Shown here: positions 18,394 through 23,806 of the stretch, in pieces
Position numbering within the stretch: position 1 is the first letter of the stretch
Layout: each line of letters opens with the position of its first letter
Translations under genes and position numbers: made by a program
Notes under the pieces: model-generated
What the model was told of the DNA's origin: nothing
Databases searched by the model: none
The model's input: only the letters and a program-made list of their open reading frames with translations
Virus record (IMG/VR): IMGVR_UViG_3300019487_000090
Location: 1-25,647 of that record
Strand: one strand, 5' to 3'
Source of the DNA: a virus
DNA length: 25,647 nt

Positions 18394-18424
18394 GCCCCCG
18401 CCGACTGATGGCGGGGGCTCTTTC
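18394..18424 (+). terminator. Terminator-like hairpin just before the helicase
   Basis: GCCCCCGCC (18394-18402) and GGCGGGGGC (18410-18418) form a perfect 9-bp stem with a seven-base loop, followed by TCTTTCC. It lies about 45 bases after the predicted start from the 18321 promoter and ends at the helicase start codon, mirroring the layout on the minus side. The 3' arm GGCGGGGGC may also hide the ribosome binding site. An intrinsic terminator is likely, but the U-run is short. Confidence 0.65.
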
Positions 18425-18425
18425 C

Positions 18426-21242
18426 ATGATGAACGATTTTCTTGAACAAGAAATCATAGGGATTGGCGAACATATCGCTCCACCCTCCGTCAGGGTGCTG
18501 ACCACGAGCGACGGAAGAAAGCATCTAGTCTATAGGGGTCCTCGCGCGATCATTAGCTACTTCATCCATCTCCCGCAGGCGCGTGTCTTTGATGGTGGCC
18601 GCACTCTCTGCCTACCCGTGACGCGTGAGACGGTGATGTGTCTGGAGGTCATGGGGCGGTTGGAGGAGGCGGATGACAGCTACATCGCAGTTGTCCGGGA
18701 GTTGCTGCAGCCGAGTGCGGAGGCGCTCACTTACTATCCGGCCCCCGTGCCCAATGCACCGCCGCCGCGCCCCCACCAGCTCGCCGCCTTCGGTTGGGCA
18801 CTGGATGGGATCTTCGGCGGACGCAAAGGGTTTGTGAACGCCTGCACCTTAGGCTGTGTCGCAGGGGAGACAATCCTTAACATTAATCGCTCGGGAGCAG
18901 GGCGGGAGTACTCAATTCGCGACGTCTATCGTCGCTTTCATGGTTGTGCTCCTCAAGGGGACCGCCGAAAAAACCAAAAGTGGAAGCGTTCCATTCAGAC
19001 GTTTGCGCGGTCGCTTTGTGATGGAGAGTTTCGTCAACATCGCGTCGTCGACGTCCTCTCTCAAGGCGTAATGCCCGTTGTCAAACTTCTATTGAAGTCA
19101 GGGAAATCAATCCGCTTAACAGGCGATCATCCCGTTGCACGCCCTGATGGTTCGTGGACTCGTGTTGATGAGCTTCGGCCTGGTGATGAGGTTCTCGTAA
19201 ACGGAACTGCACTTTGTAAGAAGTGCGGCTCAAGTGATCGGGTAAGCAGCTCTAGGAACTCAAAGCATCCAGGCTATTGTTTTTTATGCATTACTCGCTT
19301 TCTACGCGGAGGTCAACGGACGCCTTCAACACTTTTTGAGCCGGACATTCAATGTATAGCCTGCGGTAGCGCTAAAGATGTACTGCGAACTAGCTATCTC
19401 AAGAACAAAGGGTATTGTCGTTCTTGTGCTCTCCGTCGCGCAGTAGACGCTCGAAGAGCAAGCGGGTGGAAAAGTCCAAGTGGACCGCAGCATCCAAATT
19501 GGAAAGGGGGGCGCTATCGCGATAACGACGGATACATCTTGATTAAAATGCCCGAGCACCCAAGGGCTCAATCAAGTGGCTATGTTTATGAACATATCGT
19601 TATCCTAGAGCAAAAACTTGACATATCAATAACCAAAGATAAACACGTTCATCACAAGAATGAAAACAAAGCAGATAATCGTCCCGAAAATTTGGAACTC
19701 CTTGATCCAAGCGAGCATCTTGTTGCTCATTCAGGGCATCGAAGACTAAATGGTGGCCGAAGCGGTAAGGGTGGCGAAGTCATCTTTATTCCCAAAGTCG
19801 ATGTTGTTGTCTCAATCGTCTCGGACGGAGAGACCGACGTTTACGACTTGGTAATGGAAGCGCCACACCACAACTTCGTGGCCAACGGAATCGTGGTCCA
19901 CAACAGTGGAAAGACCAAAATGGCCATCGATCTCATGCGCCACTTCGTACAAACCCGCGCTCTGGTCATCGGCCAGAAGATCACGTTGGAGCAGTGGCAA
20001 GAACAACTCGCCCTCTATTGGCCCGAGGCGGAAAGTTACATTCTGCACCAGCAGGGGAGTCTGGAGAACCGAAAAGCCTATCTGGCCGATATCCGCAGGT
20101 GCGAATCCGTGCCTCCCTATCGTATTATCCTCGTCAATTGGGAAACTGTCGCCGCGCTGGAGAAGGACCTCAAGAAGTTTGGCAAATTCGATCTGATCGT
20201 GGCTGATGAATCCAGCCGTCTTCTCAGCCGCACCACCGCCATGGCCCGGGCTGCGAAGGCCCTGGCGTGGCGTCACGCCTGGTATACGATCGCGATGACA
20301 GGGACACCGATCCGTAAAAGTGTCGAGGACCTCTGCGCGCTCGGCCAGTTTGTGGATAGCTCTGTATTCGGCTCCCGCATTGCCGAATTTCGCCAGCAGT
20401 ATTGCGACGAGTTATGGACGAGCAACCATCCTCTGTCGGTGCCCAAACCCGAGCGCGTGGCGGAGCTGGTTACGAAGTTCTACTCCTTCGGCTATCGCGT
20501 GAGCCGAGCGGCCGTCGATATGCCGGAGCCCGAGCGACGCGTCGTTCACCTGAAGCCTTCCCAGGAACAGGTCGAGCAACTGGAGCGTATCGACCGCGGT
20601 GAGACCTGCGAGGCCAGCAACGTCCTCGCGCGTATCATCCGCCAGCAGCAGGTGACGGCGGGCTTCGCGATGGCGCCCCATGACGCTCCCGCCGCCACCT
20701 GGGACGGAGAGCACGAGCAGATCCTTCGACCGCGCCCTCTGCACAATCCCAAACTGGATTGGATCATGGACTACCTGGAGGAGGCGTGGGACACCGAGGA
20801 CGGCAAGTTCCTGATCTGGACGCGTTTCATCCCTGAGATCGATCTCCTCCATCAGCGGCTCGTCGACCGCTGGGGGAGCAACGCCGTCGCACGGCTGGAC
20901 GGCAGCACTCCGGATGCGCGCCGCCAGGAGATTCGGCGGGCCGTCAACGACCGGTTGAACCCGCTTCGTGTATTGGCATGCAATTTGCAGACAGGTGCAA
21001 TGGGGCTGGATCTGCCGGGGATTGACATAATGGTGTACCATTCGTCCACGTTCGATTATGTCAACCGCGTGCAGTCGGAGGGGCGTGGAACACGCCTTGG
21101 GCGCACGAAGCCCTGCCAGATCATTGATCTCGTCCTGACCGGCACCATCGACGAGCATATCGCCGACGTGCTGGCGCAAAAGCAGTCCGTCCATGACCTG
21201 CTGGTAGGCCAGGGATTTCGACAGTTCCGTGAGGGTTCATGA
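18426..21242 (+). CDS. SNF2-type DNA helicase/translocase precursor with intein
   Basis: The precursor is about 938 residues; removing the intein (144-493) leaves about 588. The exteins join as TLG + SGKTKMA, restoring a Walker A loop. Downstream are motif II FDLIVADESSRLL, motif III AMTGTPIRKS and motifs V/VI TGAMGLDLPGIDIMVYHSST and NRVQSEGRGTRLGRTKPC, typical of superfamily 2 SNF2-like helicases of phages. Such proteins translocate on DNA during replication or recombination. ATG 18426 (or 18429) is preferred because an upstream in-frame ATG at 18408 lies in the loop of the hairpin; none has a good ribosome binding site. It leads an operon with two recombination genes, and its stop overlaps the next ATG. 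Confidence 0.9.
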   Translation: MMNDFLEQEIIGIGEHIAPPSVRVLTTSDGRKHLVYRGPRAIISYFIHLPQARVFDGGRTLCLPVTRETVMCLEVMGRLEEADDSYIAVVRELLQPSAEALTYYPAPVPNAPPPRPHQLAAFGWALDGIFGGRKGFVNACTLGCVAGETILNINRSGAGREYSIRDVYRRFHGCAPQGDRRKNQKWKRSIQTFARSLCDGEFRQHRVVDVLSQGVMPVVKLLLKSGKSIRLTGDHPVARPDGSWTRVDELRPGDEVLVNGTALCKKCGSSDRVSSSRNSKHPGYCFLCITRFLRGGQRTPSTLFEPDIQCIACGSAKDVLRTSYLKNKGYCRSCALRRAVDARRASGWKSPSGPQHPNWKGGRYRDNDGYILIKMPEHPRAQSSGYVYEHIVILEQKLDISITKDKHVHHKNENKADNRPENLELLDPSEHLVAHSGHRRLNGGRSGKGGEVIFIPKVDVVVSIVSDGETDVYDLVMEAPHHNFVANGIVVHNSGKTKMAIDLMRHFVQTRALVIGQKITLEQWQEQLALYWPEAESYILHQQGSLENRKAYLADIRRCESVPPYRIILVNWETVAALEKDLKKFGKFDLIVADESSRLLSRTTAMARAAKALAWRHAWYTIAMTGTPIRKSVEDLCALGQFVDSSVFGSRIAEFRQQYCDELWTSNHPLSVPKPERVAELVTKFYSFGYRVSRAAVDMPEPERRVVHLKPSQEQVEQLERIDRGETCEASNVLARIIRQQQVTAGFAMAPHDAPAATWDGEHEQILRPRPLHNPKLDWIMDYLEEAWDTEDGKFLIWTRFIPEIDLLHQRLVDRWGSNAVARLDGSTPDARRQEIRRAVNDRLNPLRVLACNLQTGAMGLDLPGIDIMVYHSSTFDYVNRVQSEGRGTRLGRTKPCQIIDLVLTGTIDEHIADVLAQKQSVHDLLVGQGFRQFREGS
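18855..19904 (+). other. Intein with HNH endonuclease inserted in the helicase Walker A loop
   Basis: A 350-residue intein starts at Cys (CVAGETILNINRSG, block A) and ends with VANGIVVHN (blocks F/G, His-Asn); the next extein residue is Ser. Block B is KSIRLTGDHPVARPDGSW, followed by VDELRPGDEVLV. The middle has two zinc-knuckle copies (CKKCGSS ... CFLC and CIACGSA ... CRSC) and an HNH domain (GYVYEHIVILEQKL, then HVHHKNENKADNRPENLELL). It removes itself by protein splicing and can home into intein-free alleles. Insertion at the ATP-binding loop is a common intein site. The element is lower in GC than its host gene, which fits recent arrival. Confidence 0.95.
20972..20990 (+). promoter_or_regulatory. 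Possible internal sigma-54-like site in the helicase gene
   Basis: TTGGCATGCAATTTGCAG (20973-20990) also matches the RpoN pattern with ten bases between GG and GC. It lies within codons for a conserved helicase segment (LACNLQTGAMG), 250 bases before the next gene, so the match may be chance from the coding constraint. Listed only because it is as good a match as the intergenic ones. Confidence 0.25.
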
Positions 21243-22045: not shown

Positions 22046-22662
22046 GTGCAACGATGACCGATGAAGAACTTTTGAGCCAACTGGAGCAAGAAGCGTCAGC
22101 CCCTCCTCCTGGCGGCGGTGGCGGAGAGGCAGATGAGGAGGCGCTCCTCAACGAGGGGATCAACCCCAACATCAGCCTGGATACGATTGTGCCAGCAGGG
22201 CAATATGTGGCGCGCTTCGAGGAAGTGATCGTGAAGCGGTCGCAAAGGCGCGAGGAGCGCGATCCCAAGAACCCTCATCTTCCGGCAACCCTGAAGGGCG
22301 GCACCCTTATGCTGGAGTGTAAACTGGTGATCCTGGCAGGGGAGCACGAGGGCCGAAACCTCTACGACCGGCTGATGCTGGAGGGCAAGGGTGACGTGCG
22401 TTTGGCTCGGGTCGCCAGCGTCCTTAACCGTTACGATCGGGACCTGAAGTGCCTGACGGGCTTCCCCTCAAATCCTCCCACGGCAGGGGAGATCAAGCGG
22501 TGGCTGCTCGGTCAGGTCGTCACCGTTGAGGTCGAAATCACCCCGGAGCGAACGTGGAACGGCAAGAAACAGCCGCCTCGGAGCGAGATCGCCTTCATGG
22601 GCTACCACGAACCGCCGGCCCAGCCCACGGAGACCGCACTGGCAGCGCCCGAGTGGAAGTGA
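22042..22662 (+). CDS. SSB-like / DUF669-type recombination protein
   Basis: ATG at 22042 overlaps the previous stop and follows AAAGGATCGCA. After a flexible Pro/Gly-rich stretch (APPPGGGGGEADEEA) comes a beta-rich core: PAGQYVARFEEVIVKRSQRR, GGTLMLECKLVILAGEHEGR, NLYDRLMLEGKGDVRLARVA, then LLGQVVTVEVEITPERTWNG. This layout matches phage DUF669/SSB-like proteins that travel with Sak4 or RecT-like ATPases and bind single-stranded DNA. 206 residues. The operon with helicase and ATPase suggests a recombination-dependent replication module. It ends inside a long perfect inverted repeat. Confidence 0.8.
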   Translation: MSATMTDEELLSQLEQEASAPPPGGGGGEADEEALLNEGINPNISLDTIVPAGQYVARFEEVIVKRSQRREERDPKNPHLPATLKGGTLMLECKLVILAGEHEGRNLYDRLMLEGKGDVRLARVASVLNRYDRDLKCLTGFPSNPPTAGEIKRWLLGQVVTVEVEITPERTWNGKKQPPRSEIAFMGYHEPPAQPTETALAAPEWK

Positions 22663-22711
22663 CGCCTTCAGGCGGTGCAGCGTGGCGACCGGCACCGCCT
22701 GAAGGCGTCAC
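22659..22711 (+). repeat. Perfect 20-bp inverted repeat between the SSB gene and the tRNA
   Basis: The arms 22659-22678 (beginning GTGACGCCTTCAGG) and 22692-22711 are exact complements with a 13-base loop. The stem starts at the SSB gene's stop codon and ends one base before the first base of the split tRNA. No U-run follows, so RNase III processing, mRNA 3'-end protection or blocking of transcription into the tRNAs are all possible. A 20-bp perfect stem is exceptional in this window. Confidence 0.85.
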
Positions 22712-23121
22712 TCCGGGATCGTCTAACGGCAGGACACCGAACAGATGAGCGACTATTACAAGCAATGGCGCGCTAAAGTAATCCAAGATTTGGGCGGTGT
22801 TTGTGTCTGGTGTGGAGCGACGAATCATCTCCAAATCGACCATATCAATCCAGCTCAAAAACGCGTATCCGTGTCTAATATCTGGTCTTATTGTTCTGAG
22901 ATTGTCGAAGAAGAGTTGGCCAAGTGCCAGCTTTTGTGTGAGATTTGCCACAAGGGAAAGCATGCAGCGACCCATGGCACTTATTCTCGTTATCGACATC
23001 ACAAATGCAGATGCAATCCTTGTCGTGAGGCAGGGAACAGATATATGCGCGATTACAAGAAAAAGCGTCGCAGTCGTTCTTGGAGCCGTCAATCGAGGTT
23101 CGAGTCCTCGTCCCGGAGCCA
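22712..23121 (+). tRNA. tRNA gene split by an HNH ORF (5' half 22712-22741, 3' half about 23089-23121)
   Basis: The 5' half has acceptor TCCGGGA, a D-stem (GTCT/GGAC) and the start of the anticodon arm. The 3' half has a T-arm (CGAGG, loop TTCGAGT, CCTCG), acceptor TCCCGGA fully paired to the 5' strand, discriminator G and an encoded CCA. About 350 bases holding an HNH gene replace the anticodon region. I could not rebuild a paired anticodon stem from the flanks (5' CCGAA; 3' AGCCG or GCCGT), so the anticodon arm may be deleted, or splicing ends differ from my guess. The body resembles tRNA-Gln or tRNA-Glu, but identity is unproven. Either an intron-like insertion or a pseudo-tRNA. Confidence 0.75.
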
Positions 23122-23221
23122 GAGTAGTGACCTGCGTGGGATGGCTGCCCACGACGAAAGTGACATAACGCAGCCGCGTGCTCGCCCCGCTCCCCCGGTG
23201 GGGAGGATGAGAGCGAAATAG
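22745..23221 (+). CDS. HNH endonuclease within the split tRNA
   Basis: ATG at 22745 begins just after the 5' tRNA half (no clear ribosome binding site). The core VCVWCGATNHLQIDHINPAQ and CQLLCEICHKGKHA is a zinc-stabilised HNH domain. A Cys-rich basic segment (HKCRCNPCREAGNRYMRDYK) follows. The frame runs on through the 3' half of the tRNA (KKKRRSRSWSRQSRFESSS, where the T-arm DNA lies) to 23221, so the last 50 residues are not normal HNH sequence. The original stop may have been lost. In this family the domain cleaves DNA at the homing site; its position here suggests that the tRNA gene is the target. Confidence 0.85.
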   Translation: MSDYYKQWRAKVIQDLGGVCVWCGATNHLQIDHINPAQKRVSVSNIWSYCSEIVEEELAKCQLLCEICHKGKHAATHGTYSRYRHHKCRCNPCREAGNRYMRDYKKKRRSRSWSRQSRFESSSRSQSSDLRGMAAHDESDITQPRARPAPPVGRMRAK

Positions 23222-23287
23222 CGCAGGCCGTCAACGGAGAGACCCGCTGGAGAACCGTTTTGGGCGCGTGTCGTAAACCGTCCACCT

Positions 23288-23361
<74 letters not shown>

Positions 23362-23376
23362 CTGGCGAGGGGGGGT

Positions 23377-23574: not shown

Positions 23575-23669
23575 GCAAGGTGGCCAAACCTCCGCTGCGG
23601 CGGGGAGCGACTGTGAAGCCAGTAAGAAACACCGGTAAATATGCGCGTCACGGAGACGCGGGCATGTAG
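23571..23669 (+). CDS. Small basic ORF (32 aa) in the tRNA spacer, doubtful
   Basis: ATG at 23571 overlaps the previous stop. The product MSKVAKPPLRRGATVKPVRN and then TGKYARHGDAGM is very basic, like small nucleic-acid-binding peptides, but it ends inside the following tRNA (stop 23667-23669), which is unusual. Translation is unproven. Confidence 0.3.
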   Translation: MSKVAKPPLRRGATVKPVRNTGKYARHGDAGM

Positions 23670-23729
23670 CTCAATGTAGAGCGTCCGGTCGATAACCGGA
23701 AGATCGAGGTGCAAGTCCTTGCGTGCCCG
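23660..23729 (+). tRNA. tRNA-Ile (GAT)
   Basis: Acceptor GGGCATG/CGTGCCC (one G-T pair), D-stem GCTC/GAGC with a short loop AATGTA, anticodon stem TCCGG/CCGGA with loop TCGATAA (GAT), T-stem CGAGG/CCTTG with a G-T and loop TGCAAGT, discriminator G, no encoded CCA. The T-loop lacks the usual TTC, a common kind of divergence in phage tRNAs. It lies two bases before the next tRNA. Confidence 0.85.
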
Positions 23730-23731
23730 TG

Positions 23732-23804
23732 GCGTGGGTAGGCCAAAGGCAGAGCCAGCGGGATACAAACCGTCGGAATGGGCGTTCGAGTCGTCCCCCA
23801 CGCC
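23732..23804 (+). tRNA. tRNA of uncertain identity, odd anticodon arm
   Basis: The frame fits standard tRNA numbering: acceptor GCGTGGG/CCCACGC, T8, A9, D-stem GGC/GCC with G18 and G19, T-stem GGGCG/CGTCC with loop TTCGAGT, discriminator C, no encoded CCA. The anticodon stem is imperfect with a 7-base loop ATACAAA (anticodon ACA, two mismatches). A 4-bp stem GCGG/CCGT instead leaves an 8-base loop, GATACAAA. Either is abnormal: an A34 anticodon, or an enlarged loop as in frameshift suppressor tRNAs. The identity cannot be set from the sequence alone. Confidence 0.7.
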
Positions 23805-23806
23805 GT

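Follow-up and report, generated by a model that had tools for sequence, protein, structure and literature searches.

The window, by which we mean the whole 25,647-nt stretch of viral DNA that was analysed, contains one tRNA-Gln(UUG) gene (22712–23121) that is interrupted in its anticodon arm by an open reading frame (ORF) for an HNH endonuclease. The HNH gene has almost certainly broken this tRNA. It belongs to the protein family phrog_4234, and we regard it as quite probable that this is a family of free-standing homing endonucleases that insert into the anticodon arms of phage tRNA genes, kill the tRNA and sometimes co-transfer a replacement. The HNH gene is free-standing in that it is not inside an intron or intein, as no group I or group II RNA is present and the ORF fills the insert. 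The original prediction, made from the window alone, was that the HNH targets a tRNA gene, and this is borne out by relatives that split other tRNAs. Its view that such a homing site would be rare did not hold up, as relatives are found in tRNA arrays throughout phages and several of them split other tRNAs.

The 5′ half of the tRNA, TCCGGGATCGTCTAACGGCAGGACACCG (22712–22739, plus strand; positions 1–29), comprises the acceptor strand, the D-arm, position 26 and the first three nucleotides of the anticodon stem. The 3′ half, TTGGAGCCGTCAATCGAGGTTCGAGTCCTCGTCCCGGAGCCA (23080–23121, plus strand), extends from position 34 to the encoded CCA (positions 34–76) and contains the anticodon TTG (23080–23082), G37 and A38, the 3′ anticodon strand GCCGT, a perfect T-arm (23094–23110), the acceptor strand TCCCGGA (23111–23117), the discriminator G73 and the CCA (23119–23121). 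The acceptor strands TCCGGGA and TCCCGGA form seven of seven pairs with no G–U. In a strict half-tRNA search, exactly one orphan half pair with matching acceptors was present in the 25.6-kb window, with none on the minus strand and none in dinucleotide shuffles (0/200). A chance origin of the halves was ruled out by these shuffles together with shifted and mirrored controls. The two halves belong to one tRNA, in agreement with the original prediction that the acceptor stem, D-arm, T-arm and encoded CCA of one tRNA are all present. The 5′ half is closest to actinobacteriophage tRNA-Gln, and the identity tRNA-Gln(UUG) was assigned from the matches of the 3′ half, which are tRNA-Gln genes in actinobacteriophages (Mycobacterium and Gordonia phages), and from the TTG at its anticodon. 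The phage tRNA is of the bacterial, CCA-encoding type. The split gene was called neither by ARAGORN, with or without its intron mode, nor by Rfam, so that the ARAGORN and Rfam checks proposed for the locus returned no tRNA and no intron RNA.

The HNH ORF (22745–23221, plus strand, 158 aa) starts with an ATG at 22745. It matches phrog_4234 with an E-value of 5.5e-30 (residues 3–110 against profile positions 15–126 of 130), and its AlphaFold2 model, built with input sequences from the window and viral contigs only, has high confidence (pLDDT 93.4). Most of the top PDB structure matches of the model are HNH nucleases, but these matches are weak (best E 0.025); a PDB sequence search with the family profile gave no match, and the Pfam HNH score of the protein is 17.8 bits, under the cut-off of 21.4. 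The predicted HNH gene between the tRNA halves is real and a member of phrog_4234. The family-conserved part covers residues 1 to about 110 (22745–23077). Unlike phrog_4234, the window ORF continues past this part, with the frame open through the tRNA 3′ half to 23221 (a read-through that had been foreseen), which adds a tail of about 48 residues; a native stop near residue 110 appears to have been lost. Residues C20, C23, D32, H33, K60, C61, C65 and H69 are invariant in the family alignment. By reading of this alignment, the central HNH asparagine seems to be replaced by the invariant lysine K60, and nuclease activity is therefore not guaranteed. In addition to the HNH cysteines, an H..CxCxxC motif in the C-terminal part (H77, C88, C90 and C93 in the window protein) is invariant in the family and is perhaps a small zinc-binding DNA-recognition element.

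At the best-pairing junction found when all length-compatible junctions were tested, the inserted segment is 336 bp long (22740–23075), a correction to the HNH-bearing separation of about 350 bases given before. The borders are uncertain by a few bases, with the left one between 22736 and 22744 and the right one between 23073 and 23080. They had been expected to come from uninterrupted homologues, but an exact search of viral contigs with 25 nt of the tRNA 5′ half gave no match, and searches of viral contigs for close relatives via the upstream gene, a Sak4-like gene and the HNH gene returned one distant match only. Because no uninterrupted relative of the window locus was found in these contigs, we infer the borders from the window itself.

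The insertion lies in the anticodon arm, which is the usual site of tRNA introns, and both halves are intact, with a perfect acceptor stem and a CCA. The HNH segment could in principle be a minimal or new tRNA intron that is removed from the transcript, leaving the two halves joined as tRNA-Gln; the fold of the complete transcript is somewhat more stable than that of shuffles (z = −2.27), with the acceptor as the main contributor. In the join test, anticodon-stem pairs were counted at every length-compatible junction. Joins inside the loop give two of five pairs. The best joins lie inside the stem and give four of five pairs (the junction 22739|23076 does so with the anticodon UUG), but they place an abnormal C at position 33, where U33 is normal, and no length-compatible join in the window gives a fully paired (5/5) stem, as the original prediction had anticipated when it failed to rebuild one. 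The join test replaced acceptance by ARAGORN as evidence. That program accepts 43 artificial joins of the halves with many different anticodons, and its acceptance of a join is therefore uninformative. Group I introns have a U as the last base of the 5′ exon and a G as the last base of the intron. At the best junctions (22739|23076 and 22736|23073), the exon ends in G or A and the insert in C or A, which breaks this rule; as the junctions are estimates, this is a weaker test than the search for an intron core. In that search, the region 22600–23300 gave no Rfam match to the catalytic core of a group I intron at E ≤ 10 and no match to group I or II RNA either at the gathering threshold or at E ≤ 10, and the related loci L005, L011 and L013 gave none at E ≤ 0.1. 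We conclude that the HNH-bearing insert is not an intron, because there is no group I/II RNA and no junction restores the anticodon stem, and we consider splicing of this segment very unlikely. Of the two options originally offered, an unusual minimal intron or a disrupted tRNA, the second is favoured. With an anticodon stem that is no longer complementary and nothing present that could splice it, the window tRNA-Gln is dead, as far as sequence can establish this.

An empty and a filled allele of the same locus are available in Escherichia coli prophages. In the M37H prophage (empty), the order is antiterminator Q, tRNA-Asn, intact tRNA-Thr(tgt), tRNA-Arg and holin. In the L6-21 prophage (filled), Q and tRNA-Asn are followed by positions 1–23 of the tRNA-Thr, the HNH gene for protein WP_001568783.1 and the tRNA-Thr from position 36 onward. 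Relative to M37H, the HNH gene replaces exactly positions 24–35 of tRNA-Thr(UGU), i.e. 12 nt, with the left flank unchanged, and its stop codon TAA coincides with positions 36–38 of the tRNA. The acceptor 3′ strand has decayed in L6-21, and some E. coli copies have GCCCGCTCCA instead of GCCCGGCACCA. Excision cannot restore this tRNA-Thr, because positions 24–35 are lost; both this loss, proved by the empty site, and the decayed acceptor in some copies speak against an intron. In two further loci, L267 (E. coli KL53; 617–648) and L164, the HNH gene of L6-21 and the tRNA-Thr 3′ half lie behind the 5′ half of another tRNA, GCTGGTTTAGCTCCAATGG. The HNH gene and the Thr 3′ half seem to have moved together there.

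Presence and absence at one locus can be compared only for members of the HNH family, and in addition to M37H and L6-21 this is possible for the mycobacteriophages Tyke and Dandelion, each against Flabslab. On the left, Tyke is 100% identical to Flabslab as far as position 26 of tRNA-Gly(gcc), and the right flank, after this gene, is again 100% identical; between the flanks, Tyke has the HNH gene and a divergent, intact tRNA-Gly(gcc). The Tyke HNH (L011, 1198–1570) contains an in-frame TAG stop, and this copy is probably dead, with the locus structure persisting. Of 190 phage records with a match to the Tyke flank, 20 span most of the query in its filled form; in the others the match runs as far as the tRNA-Gly gene, which is annotated there in most of the matches listed. 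The uninterrupted tRNA-Gly form is the common one. In Dandelion, a 5′ half of tRNA-Thr(ggt) is followed by the HNH gene, an intact tRNA-Thr(ggt) and then a 3′ half with T-arm and acceptor. Flabslab has an intact tRNA-Thr(ggt) at this place, identical to the Dandelion 5′ half over 27 nt and 93.5% identical in the 3′ flank over 108 nt. The split tRNA-Thr 3′ half of Dandelion (L013, about 1743–1810) is joined to a D-arm and an anticodon arm from a different tRNA, and the resulting chimeric tRNA-like sequence scores 33 bits with Rfam over model positions 9–63. In the Xanthomonas phage LucasX, the order is a 5′ half beginning AGGGATG, the HNH gene, an intact tRNA-Gln(ttg) and a 3′ half ending in CATCCCTGCCA, with seven of seven acceptor pairs. 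Orphan half pairs around HNH genes were found in the window and in LucasX, and none in mirrored or shifted controls. The viral contigs L140 (Asn-gtt), L047 (Gly-tcc) and L189 (Asp-gtc), which come from metagenomic phages, each contain a broken 5′ part, the HNH gene and an intact tRNA with the same anticodon. A second, intact tRNA inside the inserts of Tyke, Dandelion and LucasX is a further point against an intron.

The insertion points vary: positions 24–35 are replaced in E. coli, the break in the window is at about 29/34, in Tyke, Dandelion and L140 it lies just after the anticodon, and in the tRNA-Asp(gtc) of L189 it comes later than in the others, after the anticodon arm. Since tRNA arrays are prone to recombination, such loci could also be chance mosaics, in which array recombination left tRNA halves around an HNH gene whose target is not a tRNA. 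Both the KL53 locus, where the HNH gene and the 3′ half are unchanged but the 5′ half is another one, and the chimeric Dandelion 3′ half would suit this explanation. However, the same architecture in the same part of the tRNA recurs in unrelated phages and in different tRNAs (Gln, Thr-UGU, Thr-GGU, Gly-GCC, Asn and others), the E. coli allele is a clean 12-nt replacement that leaves the left flank unchanged, and the halves in the window pair over seven of seven positions. We therefore regard a chance mosaic as unlikely. Repeated independent insertion into tRNAs is the simplest account, because hosts, phage types and tRNA identities differ. When the eight split cases were placed on the 117-member family tree, in which many forks are unresolved, they required seven label changes, at least three of which are forced by well-supported branches.

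The recurrence of the same anticodon on both sides of the HNH gene was assessed among 14 candidate 5′ halves that lie upstream of an HNH gene with a tRNA downstream. In 5 of the 14, the anticodon of the next intact tRNA is present in the expected loop window, where about 1.1 would be expected by chance (our own arithmetic; binomial P about 0.003). In Tyke, Dandelion and L140 the anticodon triplet is one base nearer the D-arm than normal. Regular-expression hits to 5′ halves in L050, L099, L091, L189 (at 1964), L036 and L093 were judged to be chance matches or parts of other tRNAs and were not counted as splits, but those with a tRNA downstream still count towards the 14. Where the tRNAs upstream and downstream of an HNH gene are both intact, they never share an anticodon (0/34), and the pattern is thus limited to broken 5′ halves. 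This is most naturally read as an incoming tract having carried a tRNA with the anticodon of the broken one.

Beyond the split cases, relatives of the HNH protein were detected by tblastn in mycobacteriophages, Streptomyces phages and a Xanthomonas jumbo phage, mostly among tRNAs, and more were added when viral contigs and genomes were searched by alignment. A tRNA lies within 250 bp of 117 of the 168 distinct HNH domains (70%), compared with 39% at shifted positions in the same loci, and a tRNA starts at the end of the HNH domain in 40%, compared with 19%; this control is conservative, as the shifted positions are inside the same arrays. Of the 88 tRNAs at the HNH 3′ end, 78 are on the same strand as the HNH gene (78:10). 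The family phrog_4234 favours phage tRNA arrays, with most of the relatives beside tRNAs and not inside them. In three phages, the next intact tRNA begins within the HNH coding sequence (Skinny, L012, 1114–1575; Zaria, L004, 2471–2900; Magritte, L014, 1141–1516), so that the last HNH codons double as tRNA acceptor sequence. In Skinny, a gene for an RtcB-like RNA ligase (L012, 1749–2700) directly follows the HNH/tRNA-Glu pair in the tRNA array.

In the window, the split tRNA-Gln has as neighbours in a small array tRNA-Met(cat) (23288–23362, plus strand; ARAGORN, and 67.3 bits with Rfam RF00005) and tRNA-Ile(gat) (23659–23730, plus strand; ARAGORN, Rfam 61.1 bits). Directly abutting the latter is a weak tRNA-like gene, Cys(aca) (23731–23805, plus strand), which is called by ARAGORN, scores 27.9 bits with Rfam against a gathering score of 29 and is possibly decaying. 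The window contains no replacement tRNA-Gln. Upstream, a self-match revealed a perfect 21-bp inverted repeat with a 13-nt loop (22658–22712; arms 22658–22678 and 22692–22712), which spans the stop codon of the upstream gene and touches the first base of the split tRNA; no T-run follows the hairpin. The gene for an SNF2-type helicase (18408–21242, plus strand) contains an intein (Intein_splicing, PF14890, residues 213–499) with an HNH_3 homing domain, which is a second mobile HNH element of the same phage fragment.

HNH genes in phage tRNA arrays are already known, and so is SegB of T4 and T6, a free-standing GIY-YIG homing endonuclease of the phage tRNA region (Brok-Volchanskaya 2008, in the form in which it is cited in PMC2988022 and PMC13096335). 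SegB cleaves inside the tRNA genes of T-even phages and drives the inheritance and amplification of the region (PMC2988022, PMC13096335). The HNH family resembles SegB in its position among phage tRNA genes; it differs in that the window protein is an HNH and not a GIY-YIG enzyme, and in that SegB lies between tRNAs (tRNA-Arg/tRNA-Ile, PMC2988022), with neither splitting of a tRNA nor a same-anticodon replacement reported. The HNH gene might, like SegB, be kept as a useful phage gene that amplifies or exchanges tRNA arrays against tRNA-cutting defences of the host, with the split as a by-product. The amplification of a tRNA segment driven by SegB overcomes Septu (PMC13096335), and the HNH family is likewise associated with tRNA arrays. 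However, the in-frame stop of the Tyke copy and the lost stop of the window copy fit a selfish life cycle, and no amplification is seen in the window, which makes a role of this kind highly improbable. The splitting of other tRNA genes by related nuclease genes in unrelated phages, often with an intact tRNA of the same anticodon behind, points to a selfish nuclease whose landing site is the tRNA anticodon arm.

In mycobacterial and mycobacteriophage tRNA arrays, HNH homing endonucleases are the most widespread coding gene and have been proposed to spread or diversify tRNAs, according to PMC5966550 and PMC6409571 (and Pope 2014 as cited there). The relatives found here come from the same phage groups, but the text consulted in PMC5966550 and PMC6409571 mentions no anticodon-arm insertion, empty site or same-anticodon replacement. 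Mob-type HNH genes split genes in T4-like phages, namely mobE in nrdA of Aeh1 and mobA in gene 60 of T4 (PMC2988022). In both situations a free-standing HNH gene splits a conserved functional part of its host gene; the hosts of mobE and mobA are protein-coding and still work as split proteins, whereas a tRNA cannot. A group I intron is present in the anticodon region of a bacterial tRNA-fMet (Bonocora and Shub 2001, as far as it is cited in PMC3984707). The window element shares with the group I introns of bacterial tRNAs an endonuclease gene in the anticodon region, but it has neither ribozyme nor splicing. As of 2014, every known phage intron lay in a protein-coding gene, although phage tRNA genes are numerous (PMC3984707). 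In the open-access literature searched, we found no description of an HNH gene that splits the tRNA itself or of a same-anticodon replacement.

Cleavage and homing by the HNH family are what we infer from these arrangements. In a mixed infection, the HNH protein would introduce a nick or a cut into an uninterrupted tRNA gene, at or close to the anticodon arm, and the HNH gene would be copied in when the damage is repaired with the HNH-bearing genome as template. As a target the anticodon arm makes sense, being conserved and found in many phages. The left junction would fall at the border between the D-arm and the anticodon arm, whereas the right junction would have two possible places. In the window and in E. 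coli it would lie within the tRNA that was hit; in Tyke, Dandelion, LucasX and others it would lie further on, so that a tRNA is transferred along with the HNH gene. Several relatives would in this way have received, directly after the HNH gene, an intact tRNA with the same anticodon, and the loss would be repaired in the same event; the intact tRNA is observed in this position, and the repair would follow from it. The window, with no replacement tRNA, may represent a recent or harmful state, or the loss may be tolerated since the phage tRNA is dispensable. More tentatively, and in our view rather doubtfully, the HNH could act as a drive that cuts the anticodon arm and travels with a divergent tRNA that has the same anticodon and resists cutting, so that invasion both breaks and replaces the resident tRNA. 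If this were true, the window copy would be one without its rescuing tRNA, either through loss or from the outset, and repeated invasions would seed phage tRNA arrays, swap their members and make them larger.

It is debated why phages have arrays of tRNAs and by what route they acquire and rearrange them; phage tRNAs counter tRNA-cutting defences. The family would be an example of a homing endonuclease that occupies a non-coding host gene and needs no splicing there, at the cost of losing a dispensable phage tRNA or of bringing a spare. The E. coli M37H and L6-21 prophages are a ready-made pair for an assay, and a nuclease of the anticodon arm that often carries a tRNA with the same anticodon would provide a concrete, testable route for the spread of tRNA genes.
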